Shown here piece by piece: positions 38,515 through 43,811 of a stretch of 64,000 nt of DNA. Both the position numbers and the translations under genes were made by a program. The stretch comes from Cryoendolithus antarcticus (Eukaryota > Ascomycota > Dothideomycetes > Cladosporiales > Cladosporiaceae): contig NAJO01000001.1 of NCBI GenBank assembly GCA_002077065.1, positions 1,426,001-1,490,000 on the forward strand, read 5' to 3'. Each line of letters opens with the position of its first letter. Within the stretch, counting starts at the first letter, position 1. The notes below the pieces were generated by a model, which was not told where the DNA came from, searched no databases, and saw nothing but the letters and a program-made list of their open reading frames with translations.

Positions 38515-38619
38515 CTACACAGGCTATACTTTTAGTCTTGGACAATGACATCCTCCGCCCAACTTCATCCCACCCAACCCCAATACCTATGCAATGCCGT
38601 CCACACCCCCTTTCCCTAT

Positions 38620-39189
38620 CTAAGCGCTGAACCCCTCCCTCTTCCCCGGCATCATAGCCCCATCCGACGCAGGACACCCAGGCAACAATTTCCCAATGTC
38701 CGCCAACCAAGCCGCCGAATTGAACTCAGCGTAAATCTTTTTGATAAGCCATCCATACTTGCTATCCTTGCACTTCCTCGTCTCAAGAATACTCACACCC
38801 CCAACAACCTGCGGCTTCAAACCCACACTCCACCTAACAGTAATAACATCGCAAGTAAACCACACATTTTCGAGCTTGAACGGCACACTTGGCTGGCCAG
38901 CGGACTCAATCTGGAATTGCTGCTTCGTGGCGAAGGCTGGGGCGGTGAGGTTGAAGGGTGCCAAGCAGCCGCCGTTCTTGAGGGACTGGATGGAGCCGCT
39001 GTAGTCGGTGAAGTCCTCCGCGAACAGCGTGTTGGCGATGTCGTTATTGTAGGTTTGAATGATGCCGCCGAAGGTCTGGGCGATTTCGTTGGCTTTGGAG
39101 GAGGTGAGGCAGTGCTTGTTGTGGTGATCGGACCAGGAGACGACGCCGCTGAGAGCCGTGGTGGCGTTGGCGAGGGTTGGGAAGTGCAT
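38620..39189 (-). CDS. NTF2-like fungal secreted-type protein
   Basis: A single-exon gene of 189 residues from the ATG at 39189. The sequence matches the fungal NTF2-like group: CLTSSKANEIAQTFGGIIQTY, LFAEDFTDYSGSIQSL, VPFKLENVWFTCDVITVRW and YAEFNSAAWLADIGK. These proteins adopt a cone-shaped NTF2 fold and are often secreted; several are induced in plant or host contact, but no activity is established. The N terminus (MHFPTLANATTALSGVVS) is only weakly signal-like. The frame is open for 64 codons upstream, so a missed first exon with a better signal peptide is possible. Three or four cysteines are present. Confidence 0.78.
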   Translation of the reverse strand: MHFPTLANATTALSGVVSWSDHHNKHCLTSSKANEIAQTFGGIIQTYNNDIANTLFAEDFTDYSGSIQSLKNGGCLAPFNLTAPAFATKQQFQIESAGQPSVPFKLENVWFTCDVITVRWSVGLKPQVVGGVSILETRKCKDSKYGWLIKKIYAEFNSAAWLADIGKLLPGCPASDGAMMPGKREGFSA

Positions 39190-39740
39190 GCTTGCGGTTT
39201 TGACCTTGTAATTGGGCTGAGGGAAGGCTGTGAAGTTCGGGCGCGGTCTTCTTGGTGGTTTGAGCGAGGAAGAAGGAAGAAAAGAGACTTGTTGCGGAGG
39301 CAGAGAAGCTGGGTATTGTAGTCGCTTGACATTCGTTTCATGATCTTTGTGTTGCTTCCAATGGCTGTCTTGGCAAGCCATTGGAGACTTGCGATATGTG
39401 CTGACCGTATGATTTGGCCAATAGGTACGCTGCGCAGCTTTGAGGGGTTACAAAGTCTCTCCTCACCACAGATTCGGTTTCCGATGAGAGCCGGCAAACC
39501 TATGCGGATTCGATTGGAGTTTCCGGACTCGTCTTGGCTATGAAGTGGCCGGGACAGTGCGGCGAGTGTCGTTTTCGGTCAATGGTACAGATTTTTGGGT
39601 TTTCCGCATGCCGATAGGCGACGCATCGGAAATGTGCAGACCCATGATTTGTCGGTGAAAGATGCGACGTTGCAAACACTGCCGTGATGCTATGTTTGGA
39701 ACCCGACATTCCGTTTAGGTTATTTCATTTACTCTTCATC
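39190..39740. other. Intergenic region between the NTF2-like gene and the uS3 N-terminal gene
   Basis: No gene is supported. It presumably holds the NTF2-like promoter and the 3' end of the uS3 N-half transcript. Confidence 0.4.
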
Positions 39741-40763
39741 CTAATCTTCCAGTGACCCAGGTCCAATAGACGGCGCGCCTCCACCAGATCGTTCCGTGTT
39801 TGGACCCGCCTCTGGCTTTGCAGGTGTCGTCTTCGTCGTTGTCTCGCCCGGCGGCTTCAGCGTAGATGTCGTTGGCCGGCTCGGCCTATCGAAAGGGTAC
39901 GAGCCATTGTCATCTCGTCTAGGAGCTTGACCCGGTCGAGCGGCATTCGGCCGTGGCGCGAATGGAGTCGAACCAGGACTCGGTCTCGACGCAGCAGCGA
40001 ATCTTGAGCCACCACCAGTCCCAGCACTAGACCTCGCAGCTCCGTAAGGGCGAGCCCCAGGCGTCGCCCTGGCTTCAAACGCCGGCCGCGCTCCAGTACT
40101 CGGCCCTCGAGCTCCTCCAGTCCTTCCACCCGCAGCACCACCCGCAGCACCTGCCGGCCCACCAGGTCTCCTCCCCTGCCCCGCCGTCCGTGTCGTCCTC
40201 GCCTCCGCCCTCTTCGCCGCCTCCCTCTGCACAGCCATCCCTTCATCATAGATAAACGCACTAATCTCCACTCGTCCACCAAAGTCCTTCACAGTGCCTC
40301 CACTAACATACATCTTCTCGGTACCCTTCTTCCTCGCCTGAATCGCTGTCCGTGAGCTTGGCTTCTCACCTGCTCTTTGTAATGCCACGTAAGCGGTGAG
40401 AAGTTTGTCCGTGGCTTGTGAGGCTGTGGGAAGGTTTCGAGTGGCAGCGCGGTTGAAGGTGTAGGTAGAAGTCCGCCATTCTTGGGCTCCGAGGGGAGTT
40501 GCGGCGAACTTGATTCCGAGACGACGGGTGATGTTGGCGTGGGAGAGGTTCAGCTCGCGGGGAGGAGCGCCATTGAGGCGGGCGAGGGAGCCGTGAGAGA
40601 TCTTGAGGCGAGCGCTATGGGGGAGTTCGGAGGAGGTGCCTGGGGGTGGACCGGAGGGGGTGGTGGGGGTGACGTTCATTGAAAGGTGGCGGCGTGCGAC
40701 TCGCGAGGGGTGAACAGGTAGCATTGTGCGTGAGCGCACACAAGTGCAGGTCGGAGTAGCCAT
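39741..40763 (-). CDS. Mitochondrial uS3, N-terminal half (split, nuclear-encoded)
   Basis: A single-exon gene of 340 residues. Residues 1-30 look like a mitochondrial presequence (Arg-rich, no acidic residues, ending VARRHLSMN). Residues 95-185 match the N-terminal region of fungal mitochondrial rps3/S5/Var1: EWRTSTYTFNRAATRNLP corresponds to the EW..S.Y.FN....LP block, TDKLLTAYVAL to the N.LI.SYF.L block, and KMYVSGGTVKDFGGRVEISAFIYD truncated here to MYVSGGTVK and VEISAFIYD, to the VS.AE.KHT...I.I.VYN block. The S3 C-terminal part is absent from this gene and lies in the divergent neighbour. Instead a Gly/Ala/Arg/Pro-rich tail of about 150 residues follows. The match was made from memory of the family, not by search. 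Confidence 0.75.
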   Translation of the reverse strand: MATPTCTCVRSRTMLPVHPSRVARRHLSMNVTPTTPSGPPPGTSSELPHSARLKISHGSLARLNGAPPRELNLSHANITRRLGIKFAATPLGAQEWRTSTYTFNRAATRNLPTASQATDKLLTAYVALQRAGEKPSSRTAIQARKKGTEKMYVSGGTVKDFGGRVEISAFIYDEGMAVQREAAKRAEARTTRTAGQGRRPGGPAGAAGGAAGGRTGGARGPSTGARPAFEARATPGARPYGAARSSAGTGGGSRFAAASRPSPGSTPFAPRPNAARPGQAPRRDDNGSYPFDRPSRPTTSTLKPPGETTTKTTPAKPEAGPNTERSGGGAPSIGPGSLED

Positions 40764-40989
40764 TGTATCGCTACTTGCAACTCAATCGCGTGCATATTAT
40801 GTATGTTGTAACCGTCTGAAGTATCGAGATGATCGCCGCGGAGGAGAGCTCGACCCTGCGTCGATCAATCAATATATTGATTGACACCCATCGATTTCAC
40901 AATCACCACCGCACCTCTATCTACACACCATCTCTCCTCCCCTCCCCTCCCTCTTCTCATCGCCTCACCCCCCATCCGTCCCACCCATC
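40764..40989. promoter_or_regulatory. Bidirectional promoter of the two uS3 halves
   Basis: Only 226 bases separate the two divergent ATG codons. The side next to the plus-strand gene holds a C/T-rich tract at about 40929-40985, typical of strongly expressed fungal genes. An AT-rich palindromic stretch with TCAATCAATATATTGATTGA lies near 40864-40883. One shared promoter would keep the two halves co-expressed. Confidence 0.55.
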
Positions 40990-41607
40990 ATGGCCGCCGC
41001 CGCCGCCCCAGCAACATATACTCGCACCGCCCGCCGTCTTGCCACCGACCTCCTCTCCCCCACCATAAAAGCACCCATCGAATCCCTCCTCTCCCGCCTC
41101 TACGCCAAACCCGTAACTCTACACCTCACAAAACTCGCCCGCCCGCAACTAGACGCCGAGATCCTCGCAAACCTCGTAACGCAAAAACTCCGCGACAGAC
41201 GAAACACGCCGCGGAAAGTCATCCGAGATGCCGTCTGGCGCGCACAACTGCCAGTGAGTCAGAGCCAGGTGCCGAGTCTGGCGTCGCATGCAAAGGCAGC
41301 TGAGGTAGCGCTGGCAAGGGATCCGAGTCGAGCTACGCTGGGACGGCAGAGGGCTAGTCTGAGCAGTGTAGTGGCGGGGTTGCGGTTGAAGCAGGTTAGC
41401 AGTGTGTATGTCAGTGCTGCGGGTCGATTGGGAAAGCGTATGACTGCCAATCGGGCGCAGGAGAAGGTTGCTAGGAAGGGCTTGACGAGTAAGGGGCCGG
41501 GGTTTATGGTTAGGGGAGTTGGCAAAGCGCATACGAGGGTGGCGTTGAAGGCTGGGAAGAGGAGAGTTGGCGCTTTTGGGATCAGGGTTGCGGTTGGGCA
41601 TTCGTGA
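40990..41607 (+). CDS. Mitochondrial uS3, C-terminal half (split, nuclear-encoded)
   Basis: A single-exon gene of 205 residues. The N terminus (MAAAAAPATYTRTARRLATD) is presequence-like. From residue 38 it follows the C-terminal region of fungal mitochondrial rps3: LYAKPVTLHLTKL, DAEILANLVTQKLRDRRN and VIRDAVWRAQLP, then the uS3 signature AAGRLGKRMTANRA near 143-156. RVGAFGIRVAV near 192-202 corresponds to the GAFG.K.W terminus. Bacterial uS3 has the same order (IA..L..R, GRLGGAEIAR, GVIGVKVW). The N-terminal S3 region is missing and is found in the divergent gene at 39741-40763. It would act in the mitochondrial small subunit. The composition is GC-rich and nuclear-like, so transfer is not recent. 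Confidence 0.85.
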   Translation: MAAAAAPATYTRTARRLATDLLSPTIKAPIESLLSRLYAKPVTLHLTKLARPQLDAEILANLVTQKLRDRRNTPRKVIRDAVWRAQLPVSQSQVPSLASHAKAAEVALARDPSRATLGRQRASLSSVVAGLRLKQVSSVYVSAAGRLGKRMTANRAQEKVARKGLTSKGPGFMVRGVGKAHTRVALKAGKRRVGAFGIRVAVGHS

Positions 41608-42067: not shown

Positions 42068-43423
42068 CTACCTGTGCATGTGCCGACTTCCCGAGCAGCG
42101 CTCCCAGCAATTAACCGAAGGCTGGACTTGTGACTTGTGGCTCCGTCCACACCCCTTCATCAAATCTAGCCACCTGTCCTTCTCCGCAAGAGGACTAAGC
42201 GGACGCGTAGCCGTGCGAGCCCGCATTGCGGGCTCTCGTATGAAACTCACTGGGGCCGCTATCGTTGGCGGCAGCGGTAGCGTGTCTAGTCCCGGTATCG
42301 AAGTCCAAGGCTCTTCCATCCCTGTAGACTGCTCAGAGCGATCCGTGGGCAGGGCTGGGAAATCAACATCTTCGACTACAAGTGCGCGGCCTGGGGCGAC
42401 GTACTGGTGGCGAAAGGACTTCGGCCCAGTGAATGGCTTCCGCTCACCACCAGCGGCAGACTCCGCGCTCTTCGGACTAGGATGGTGTGGGCGCCAGAAT
42501 GTCCAGTCCGGCCCAGCGAACTGTGCCATAGTGCTGGGCTTACGGCGCTCCTCGTGGCCGTCACCCGTCATGAAGTCATCCTCAGCCCACTCAGGCCAGC
42601 ACTCGCCCTTCTCGGCATCATCAATCGCATTAGGTGCAGTAACAGCATCCTTCCGCTGCGGATCCCACGACCCCGGCCTGCGCCTGGTACTCAGACTCCT
42701 CTTCTGCACTGCCTCGACGGAATCTTCGCTGTCTTGGCGCTGCGGTCTCGAAGCAGCACTTGCGCGTGCTAGAGCGGTGGACACGCCGACATCTTCAATT
42801 GATTGCTGAGGGGTCTTGGACGCAGACGTCCAGTCCCATGTTCTCGGCTTGCGGCTTGTGCCAGAGAGACTCGAGCGAGCTGCCTCGAAGAAATCTTCGC
42901 TGTCTTGACGTTGTGGACGAGTGGCGTTGATACTCTTAATGAGGGAGGTGAAATAATCGGGCTCCTCCACTGCACGCTGGGGGACATTGGGCTGAGATGA
43001 ACGGGATGGTTTGGTGGTAGATAGGCGGGATGGGCCCGTGCGGGCTGCTTCGAAGAAGTTCTCGCTATCTTGCCGCTGCGGTCGCTTGACGTTGCTCGTG
43101 GCATTGCCGACATCCTCCTCAGTTGCGATTTGGGACACGCTGCGCTCGGCCCCGTGGGAGTCTTCGAGGCTACCAAGACGAAGGCTGAGTGTCAGGATGG
43201 CGGCTTCGAGCTTCTTCACTCGGATCGCAAGCTCGGCCTCAGAAGGTGAGTGGTCGATGGGTGGAACGCTGTCGGAGTCAGAGGAGGTGGCACGAGACCC
43301 TGTGGAGGTGGAGCTGGAAGGGAGATCCCAGCTCGAGATCGATGGGCGAAGTGTCGCGATGATTTCGTCATCATCGACGTCTATCATCTGCAGAGTGTTT
43401 TGGTCGACGGTAGAGTGTGCCAT
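42068..43423 (-). CDS. Low-complexity coiled-coil orphan with three RPQRQDSE repeats
   Basis: A 451-residue frame from the ATG at 43423. An acidic N terminus and a Ser/Thr-rich stretch precede a predicted coiled coil (AELAIRVKKLEAAILTLSLR, about residues 63-88). Then come three copies of RPQRQDSE followed by (F/S)(F/V)EA at about residues 114-128, 169-184 and 226-241, spaced about 56 residues. The C-terminal part has Trp-rich patches (WPEWAEDD, WTFWRP) and a TLPLPP motif. The TLPLPP motif and the Ser-rich plus coil layout recur in the orphan at 47385-48545. No known domain; function unknown. The open frame continues upstream of the chosen ATG with hydrophobic, unlikely sequence. Confidence 0.55.
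   Translation of the reverse strand: MAHSTVDQNTLQMIDVDDDEIIATLRPSISSWDLPSSSTSTGSRATSSDSDSVPPIDHSPSEAELAIRVKKLEAAILTLSLRLGSLEDSHGAERSVSQIATEEDVGNATSNVKRPQRQDSENFFEAARTGPSRLSTTKPSRSSQPNVPQRAVEEPDYFTSLIKSINATRPQRQDSEDFFEAARSSLSGTSRKPRTWDWTSASKTPQQSIEDVGVSTALARASAASRPQRQDSEDSVEAVQKRSLSTRRRPGSWDPQRKDAVTAPNAIDDAEKGECWPEWAEDDFMTGDGHEERRKPSTMAQFAGPDWTFWRPHHPSPKSAESAAGGERKPFTGPKSFRHQYVAPGRALVVEDVDFPALPTDRSEQSTGMEEPWTSIPGLDTLPLPPTIAAPVSFIREPAMRARTATRPLSPLAEKDRWLDLMKGCGRSHKSQVQPSVNCWERCSGSRHMHR
42701..43087 (-). repeat. Three coding repeats of the RPQRQDSE motif
   Basis: Copies lie at about 43040-43087, 42872-42919 and 42701-42748. The first two are nearly identical (RPQRQDSENFFEAAR and RPQRQDSEDFFEAAR); the third has drifted (RPQRQDSEDSVEAVQ). 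Confidence 0.8.
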
Positions 43424-43811
43424 AGTGTCGTTCGCTATGTCCGCAACGCAGAGGAAGGGTAACGAGATGGCTTCGATGATGAGCAAAGAGAGGGAGATGT
43501 GGAGGTGGAAGGTTGTGACAAGTAGGAGACAGGAGAAATGACTTAGACCTGGTCGCAGCGGTGCATGGGCTGATGTGGCGATCACCGCCATCGCGATACT
43601 AGGTTTGCTGTCGGAGATGCAGATATTGACGGACGATCTCCTCGATGCATGAAGGAGTTGCCCGTCGACCGGGTACCATCTACTGCGTAGCAGGTACAAT
43701 GGAACGTCCGTGTTGGATTTCATTGTCGGTCGCGCAGTGTGGTCCGGATATCTGGGTTACTCGTACAACGTTCCTAGAGCACAGAAGGGTATCATATGCA
43801 GCAACTCACGC

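Follow-up and report, generated by a model that had tools for sequence, protein, structure and literature searches.

In most fungi the mitochondrial form of the small-subunit ribosomal protein uS3 (uS3m, also known as rps3, S5 or Var1) is usually produced from one mitochondrial gene. S5 of Neurospora crassa is a single polypeptide of 508 residues. The available part of one paper places its gene in a group I intron of mitochondrial rnl, and describes yeast Var1 as the product of one free-standing gene (PMC5626475). In the Neurospora mitoribosome, uS3m is reported to help form the mRNA entry (PMC7560712, accessible sections). Two other lineages depart from this one-gene form. According to the accessible text on the green alga Polytomella magna, uS3m there consists of two nuclear-encoded fragments, and uS4m, uS7m and the rRNA are fragmented too; that text does not mention a divergent gene pair (PMC9576764). 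In the ciliate Tetrahymena thermophila, the function of uS3 is spread over three separate proteins (uS3m, mS31 and mS92), two of them nuclear and one mitochondrial, and the N-terminal sheet of uS3 is built from several proteins, one strand being contributed by the C-terminal protein (PMC7326499, in the portions available).

The stretch of DNA analysed here (the window, 64 kb) corresponds to bases 1,426,001-1,490,000 of contig C1 in a fungal assembly of 47 Mb and 149 contigs. It contains two uninterrupted open reading frames (ORFs) lying head to head, with 226 bp separating their start codons. This layout had been proposed in an earlier note on the same DNA and is borne out by our reading of the window; the sequence blocks which that note had quoted as typical of uS3m are likewise found in the minus- and plus-strand genes to which it had assigned them. 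In contrast to the usual fungal form, a single polypeptide from a gene in mitochondrial DNA (mtDNA), the locus consists of two ORFs on opposite strands of a 1.8-Mb contig. The features discussed below are the following.

39741..40763, minus strand: gene read as the N-terminal half of uS3m (N-half), 340 aa, single ORF without introns
40686..40763, minus strand: putative presequence for import, roughly N-half residues 1-26, judged from composition
40200..40490, minus strand: conserved core of the N-half matching S5, residues 92-188 (GAQEW...KRAEA)
39744..40199, minus strand: low-complexity C-terminal extension of the N-half, residues 189-340
40764..40989, no strand: common 226-bp spacer between the start codons (223 bp in a second copy on contig C62)
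40824..40849, no strand: 26-bp stretch identical in the C62 spacer (exact match)
40868-40881, no strand: perfect AT-rich palindrome ATCAATATATTGAT, overlapping the 15-bp stretch of the next line
40870-40884, no strand: 15-bp stretch identical in the C62 spacer (exact match), CAATATATTGATTGA
40990..41607, plus strand: gene read as the C-terminal half of uS3m (C-half), 205 aa, single ORF without introns

Both proteins are strongly basic (pI 11.5 and 12.0). By composition count, the first 40 residues of the N-half include five Arg/Lys and no acidic residue, the first one occurring at position 46, and those of the C-half include six basic and two acidic residues, with a maximum helical moment of 0.54. 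The pair is flanked by two minus-strand ORFs at 38620-39381 (253 aa) and 42068-43723 (551 aa), neither of which has a Pfam match above cut-off. Rfam and tRNA scans of the 64-kb window were both empty, and a search for loci in viral, bacterial and archaeal contigs led nowhere.

As a single sequence, the C-half matched the Pfam family of yeast Var1 (VAR1, PF05316.17) at E = 7.1e-6 (26.6 bits, under the curated cut-off of 33) and bacterial rpsC at E = 0.0011, also under its curated cut-off. Against the PDB, the first match of the same sequence was a bacterial uS3 (E = 4.8e-5), followed by Neurospora S5 (E = 3.9e-4, two stretches). A 21-sequence profile placed S5 (PDB 6yw5, chain CC), a structurally proven fungal uS3m, first at E = 8.9e-18 over residues 240-306 and 402-503, and then bacterial uS3 chains from 1.2e-4. 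Alignment A1 comprises the window protein and 20 of the 27 C-half entries in public protein data (outside it are P0009, P0010, P0016, P0022, P0023, P0024 and P0027), and PF05316.18 is listed for 26 of these 27. The match begins near residues 83-89 of bacterial uS3, which we place late in the N-terminal domain, ahead of the C-terminal domain. The AlphaFold model of the C-half was of low confidence (mean pLDDT 54.6); a Foldseek search with this weak model gave 171 matches, of which just 6yw5_CC, ranked first at E = 8.3e-4, reached 0.001 or better. The next rows were other ribosome entries, mostly uS3 judging by chain and title. From these similarities we read the plus-strand gene as encoding the C-terminal domain of fungal uS3m together with the final portion of its N-terminal domain. 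Cytosolic uS3 was rejected as an identity: matches to the S3 C-terminal Pfam family are located elsewhere in the assembly, on contigs C99 and C68.

The N-half is more divergent among relatives, with 31-55% identity versus 51-74% for the C-half (own-genome copies and P0028 excluded). Searched alone it had no match in Pfam or NCBIfam, and the PDB returned only an unrelated entry at E = 6.6. A profile of five sequences brought S5 to first place (E = 0.0093, residues 52-131; next entry unrelated, 0.8), and one of 34 sequences matched residues 53-148 of S5 at E = 2e-6 (about 30 bits) among 177,635 distinct PDB sequences, the next being unrelated at 1.5. A failure of the 340-residue protein to match the N-terminal region of rps3 in profile searches had been named beforehand as one outcome that would count against the split, and the protein passed. 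With a profile restricted to the core (11 of the 34 rows), the sole PDB entry returned was S5 (residues 54-142, E = 4.8e-6), and the same 11 core rows in reverse found no S5 in the PDB (best E = 2.4). Pfam searches with the 34 members gave eight families at E <= 1, each matching one of the 34 (best 0.023). Of the 34 aligned proteins, 31 mostly lack a counterpart to the final ~150 of the 340 residues, and the AlphaFold model of the N-half, built on a five-row alignment, was poor (mean pLDDT 40.5). On these profile matches, the conserved N-terminal block of fungal uS3m resides in the minus-strand gene. Alignment A3 consists of both genome copies and 32 of the 35 N-half entries in public protein data, those outside it (P0054, P0061 and P0062) being two fragments and one chimera. 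P0061, a DUF4394 protein labelled 'Haliea sp. MAG', starts with fungal N-half sequence and probably stems from a chimeric metagenome contig.

The two genes therefore match separate, collinear and non-overlapping parts of S5, as expected of one ancestral protein cut mid-way, with the cut lying in the stretch equivalent to S5 residues 149-239. Neither gene holds the other half: BLASTP of the N-half against the C-half gave a best E of 0.59 over 17 residues. We conclude, with a probability of roughly 0.87, that uS3m is encoded in two halves by this gene pair. At the level of the genes, the locus resembles Polytomella in having two nuclear genes that, by their profile matches, each carry one part of uS3. 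The suggestion in the earlier note that a split, divergently paired nuclear uS3m had never been described needs narrowing: as far as the available text of the cited sources goes, the split itself has precedents, in two pieces in Polytomella and three in Tetrahymena, and what appears new is a split in fungi together with divergent pairing. The literature searched, which mostly lay outside subscription papers, contained no account of a fungal uS3m that is split or divergently paired, and in this respect the arrangement looks new.

A second head-to-head pair is present on contig C62, at 162,703-163,716 (minus strand) and 163,940-164,551 (plus strand), separated by the 223-bp spacer and encoding proteins 89% (N-half) and 99% (C-half) identical to those of the window. 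The genome thus has two convincing loci for each half, side by side both times; further rows for either half at E 0.1-0.8 were not convincing, and a VAR1 search of the genome found no match beyond the two C-halves. An artefact of the assembly of one contig was rejected, the pair recurring on C62 and in relatives. The copies are diverged duplicates (dS 0.41 for the C-half and 0.60 for the N-half), and both genes are under strong purifying selection. Nei-Gojobori estimates of dN/dS between the C1 and C62 copies were 0.035 for the C-half and 0.034 for residues 61-185 of the N-half, rising to 0.092 for the whole N-half and 0.115 for its tail from residue 186 on. The C1 copy of the N-half has 96% identity with its counterpart in Rachicladosporium sp. 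CCFEE 5018, against 89% with the C62 copy; together with the divergence of the copies, this closeness fits a hybrid or duplicated genome. The DNA around the 253-aa flanking ORF, at window positions 38539-39498, is 82% identical to sequence beside the C62 copy, so the duplication extends past the gene pair. Between the start codons, the two spacers share only two exact stretches of at least 10 bp, those of 26 and 15 bp, which are candidate shared promoter elements; the spacer presumably acts as a bidirectional promoter.

Public protein data provide 27 C-half and 35 N-half entries, and five of the 27 C-half entries share a contig with an N-half entry, contig identity being taken by proxy from equal size and source. 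The shared contigs measure 1,782, 5,850, 8,017, 25,041 and 1,947,847 bases, the largest belonging to Cladosporium fusiforme, where the two genes carry adjacent tags (Q7P37_000453 and Q7P37_000454). Some database proteins extend upstream into the spacer. The extension of the C-half P0019 can be read in antisense as the opening 17 residues of N-half proteins, as against at most 7 in shuffles (n = 40), a comparison that is not strictly like for like, the real score being the best over all N-half starts and the shuffles being of one motif. That reading puts the N-half start of P0019 at a distance of 92 codons, or 276 nt, from that of the C-half. The other eight of the nine C-half extensions gave 3-6 residues, none above its own shuffles; at 32-88 codons they are shorter than the spacer of ~90 codons, so that no signal would be expected, although this reading was made after the fact. 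When ten N-half extensions were compared with six C-half extensions, the best eight of the 60 pairs reached 21, 19, 15, 14, 10, 10, 10 and 10 residues, the maximum in shuffles being 8 (n = 60), with the caveat that the sequences are related and the pairs not independent. The antisense-compatible pairs were P0047/P0016 (21 residues), P0031/P0027 (19), P0062/P0027 (15) and P0031/P0008 (14). Antisense overlap plus unread ends would place the starts about 270-282 nt apart in these relatives. N-half extensions compared with the C-half start gave at most 9 residues (10 tested, without shuffles). Relatives with antisense-compatible upstream frames are taken to have the two genes head to head too, so that divergent pairing appears to have been kept in some of them.

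A C-half that stands alone (P0025, 203 aa) occurs in Peltaster fructicola (Dothideomycetes incertae sedis), and suggests a wider reach of the split; no N-half of this species is among the 35 N-half entries. The C-half search covered proteins up to ~359 aa, a range that a fused form would exceed. The N-half searches covered proteins up to 595 aa and scored the 7,998 candidates sharing most words; among these, no row was longer than 327 aa and none had the C-half motif GKRR.

The literature on fungal mtDNA makes a nuclear location of rps3 unsurprising, its loss from mtDNA and transfer to the nucleus being in print, and leaves the split and the divergent pair as the news. According to the available text of PMC11881002, which refers to Korovesi et al. 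2018 for this point, certain fungi have transferred rps3 into the nucleus. In the accessible parts of PMC6221350 and PMC5626475, the mtDNAs of two Mycosphaerellaceae (Capnodiales), Zymoseptoria tritici and Zasmidium cellare, are reported to be without rps3 and Pleosporales to keep a free-standing rps3, which in Stemphylium has 490 codons (PMC5626475). Seven Mycosphaerellaceae mitogenomes are compared in a paper whose main text nowhere contains 'rps' (PMC7999263). Three papers present Cladosporium mitogenomes (PMC7748871, PMC7748603, PMC9879183): in the text available, two of them name 14 core genes, with no rps3 among them, plus two ORFs each, and the third counts 16 protein genes including two free-standing ORFs, without giving names. 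The ORF pairs are ORF214 with ORF240 and ORF199 with ORF138, the sizes of the remaining pair being unstated; ORF138 is given as 957 bp, a size that does not fit its name. In the mtDNA of Bipolaris sorokiniana, the annotation gives separate proteins for two adjacent genes of the same strand, rps3 (399 bp) and rps5 (555 bp) (PMC7225605, part of the text); because fungal S5 is uS3m, the two may be parts of a single uS3m gene. The assembly analysed here seems to lack mtDNA: no mtDNA contig was found with the cox1 or Proton_antipo_M families, the latter giving no match at all. A 51-residue cox1 piece with one TGA lies near the end of contig C58 (973225-973377) and is possibly nuclear-inserted mtDNA.

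These reports bear on the possibility that the mtDNA still has an intact rps3, in which case the nuclear pair would be a transferred copy that is redundant or has been repurposed. The two unnamed free-standing ORFs in each of the three Cladosporium mitogenomes leave room for such a gene, but those of stated size are exceeded by both the free-standing rps3 of Stemphylium and Neurospora S5, rps3 is unnamed in the accessible text of all three papers, and the reported absence from Z. tritici and Z. cellare points the same way. The strong constraint on both nuclear genes also argues against a redundant transfer, and we consider this explanation very improbable. We give still less credit to a chance match of the N-half to S5, with the neighbours being unrelated genes that have a common promoter. 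It is true that the N-half match amounts to about 30 bits against one PDB sequence, with no Pfam family behind it, but all three overlapping profiles ranked the predicted protein first in the PDB, with the match falling in the expected region, clear of that of the C-half, no other row fell below 0.8, and the reversed control did not return S5.

Somewhat less improbable, but still unlikely, is that only the C-half is a working uS3m, and that the N-half, of uS3m N-terminal descent, is now a separate mitochondrial protein or a relocated mitoribosome subunit. The lower conservation of the N-half among relatives and its lineage-specific C-terminal tail would fit this scenario, as would the loss of a uS3m domain elsewhere, Holozoan mitoribosomes being described as lacking the uS3 C-terminal domain (PMC7326499, in the portions available). 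On the other hand, the conserved part of the N-half is precisely its S5-like core, purifying selection acts on this core as strongly as on the C-half, and the N-half stays beside the C-half in relatives. We therefore retain the reading that the two genes encode two halves of one uS3m.

Under this two-halves reading, the uS3 gene would first have been relocated from mtDNA into the nucleus, in an ancestor of the group, and would then have been cut in two. A single inversion of the promoter together with the N-half, with breakpoints mid-gene and just upstream of the promoter, would divide the gene, place its halves head to head and leave them with a shared promoter, all in one step. Both polypeptides would be made in the cytosol from the shared divergent promoter, the common spacer coupling expression of the two halves, and by analogy with Tetrahymena and Polytomella they may be imported separately into mitochondria. 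By the same analogy they would come to lie next to each other in the small-subunit head of the mitoribosome, where mRNA enters, and the C-half would there complete the N-terminal sheet of uS3. The full scenario, in which one inversion split the transferred gene, set its halves head to head and made the old promoter bidirectional, ensuring equal supply, and in which the uS3m of all Cladosporiales, and perhaps of other fungi, has since worked as a pair of imported polypeptides, we regard as an even bet.

The proposed split is of interest for the place of uS3 in the ribosome, where it lines the mRNA entry. If the reading is correct, the pair would be an independent split of uS3 in culturable fungi, beside the ciliate and green-algal cases, and would tell where rps3 went in fungi without an mtDNA copy. 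It would also provide a physically linked example of gene fission following transfer from organelle to nucleus.
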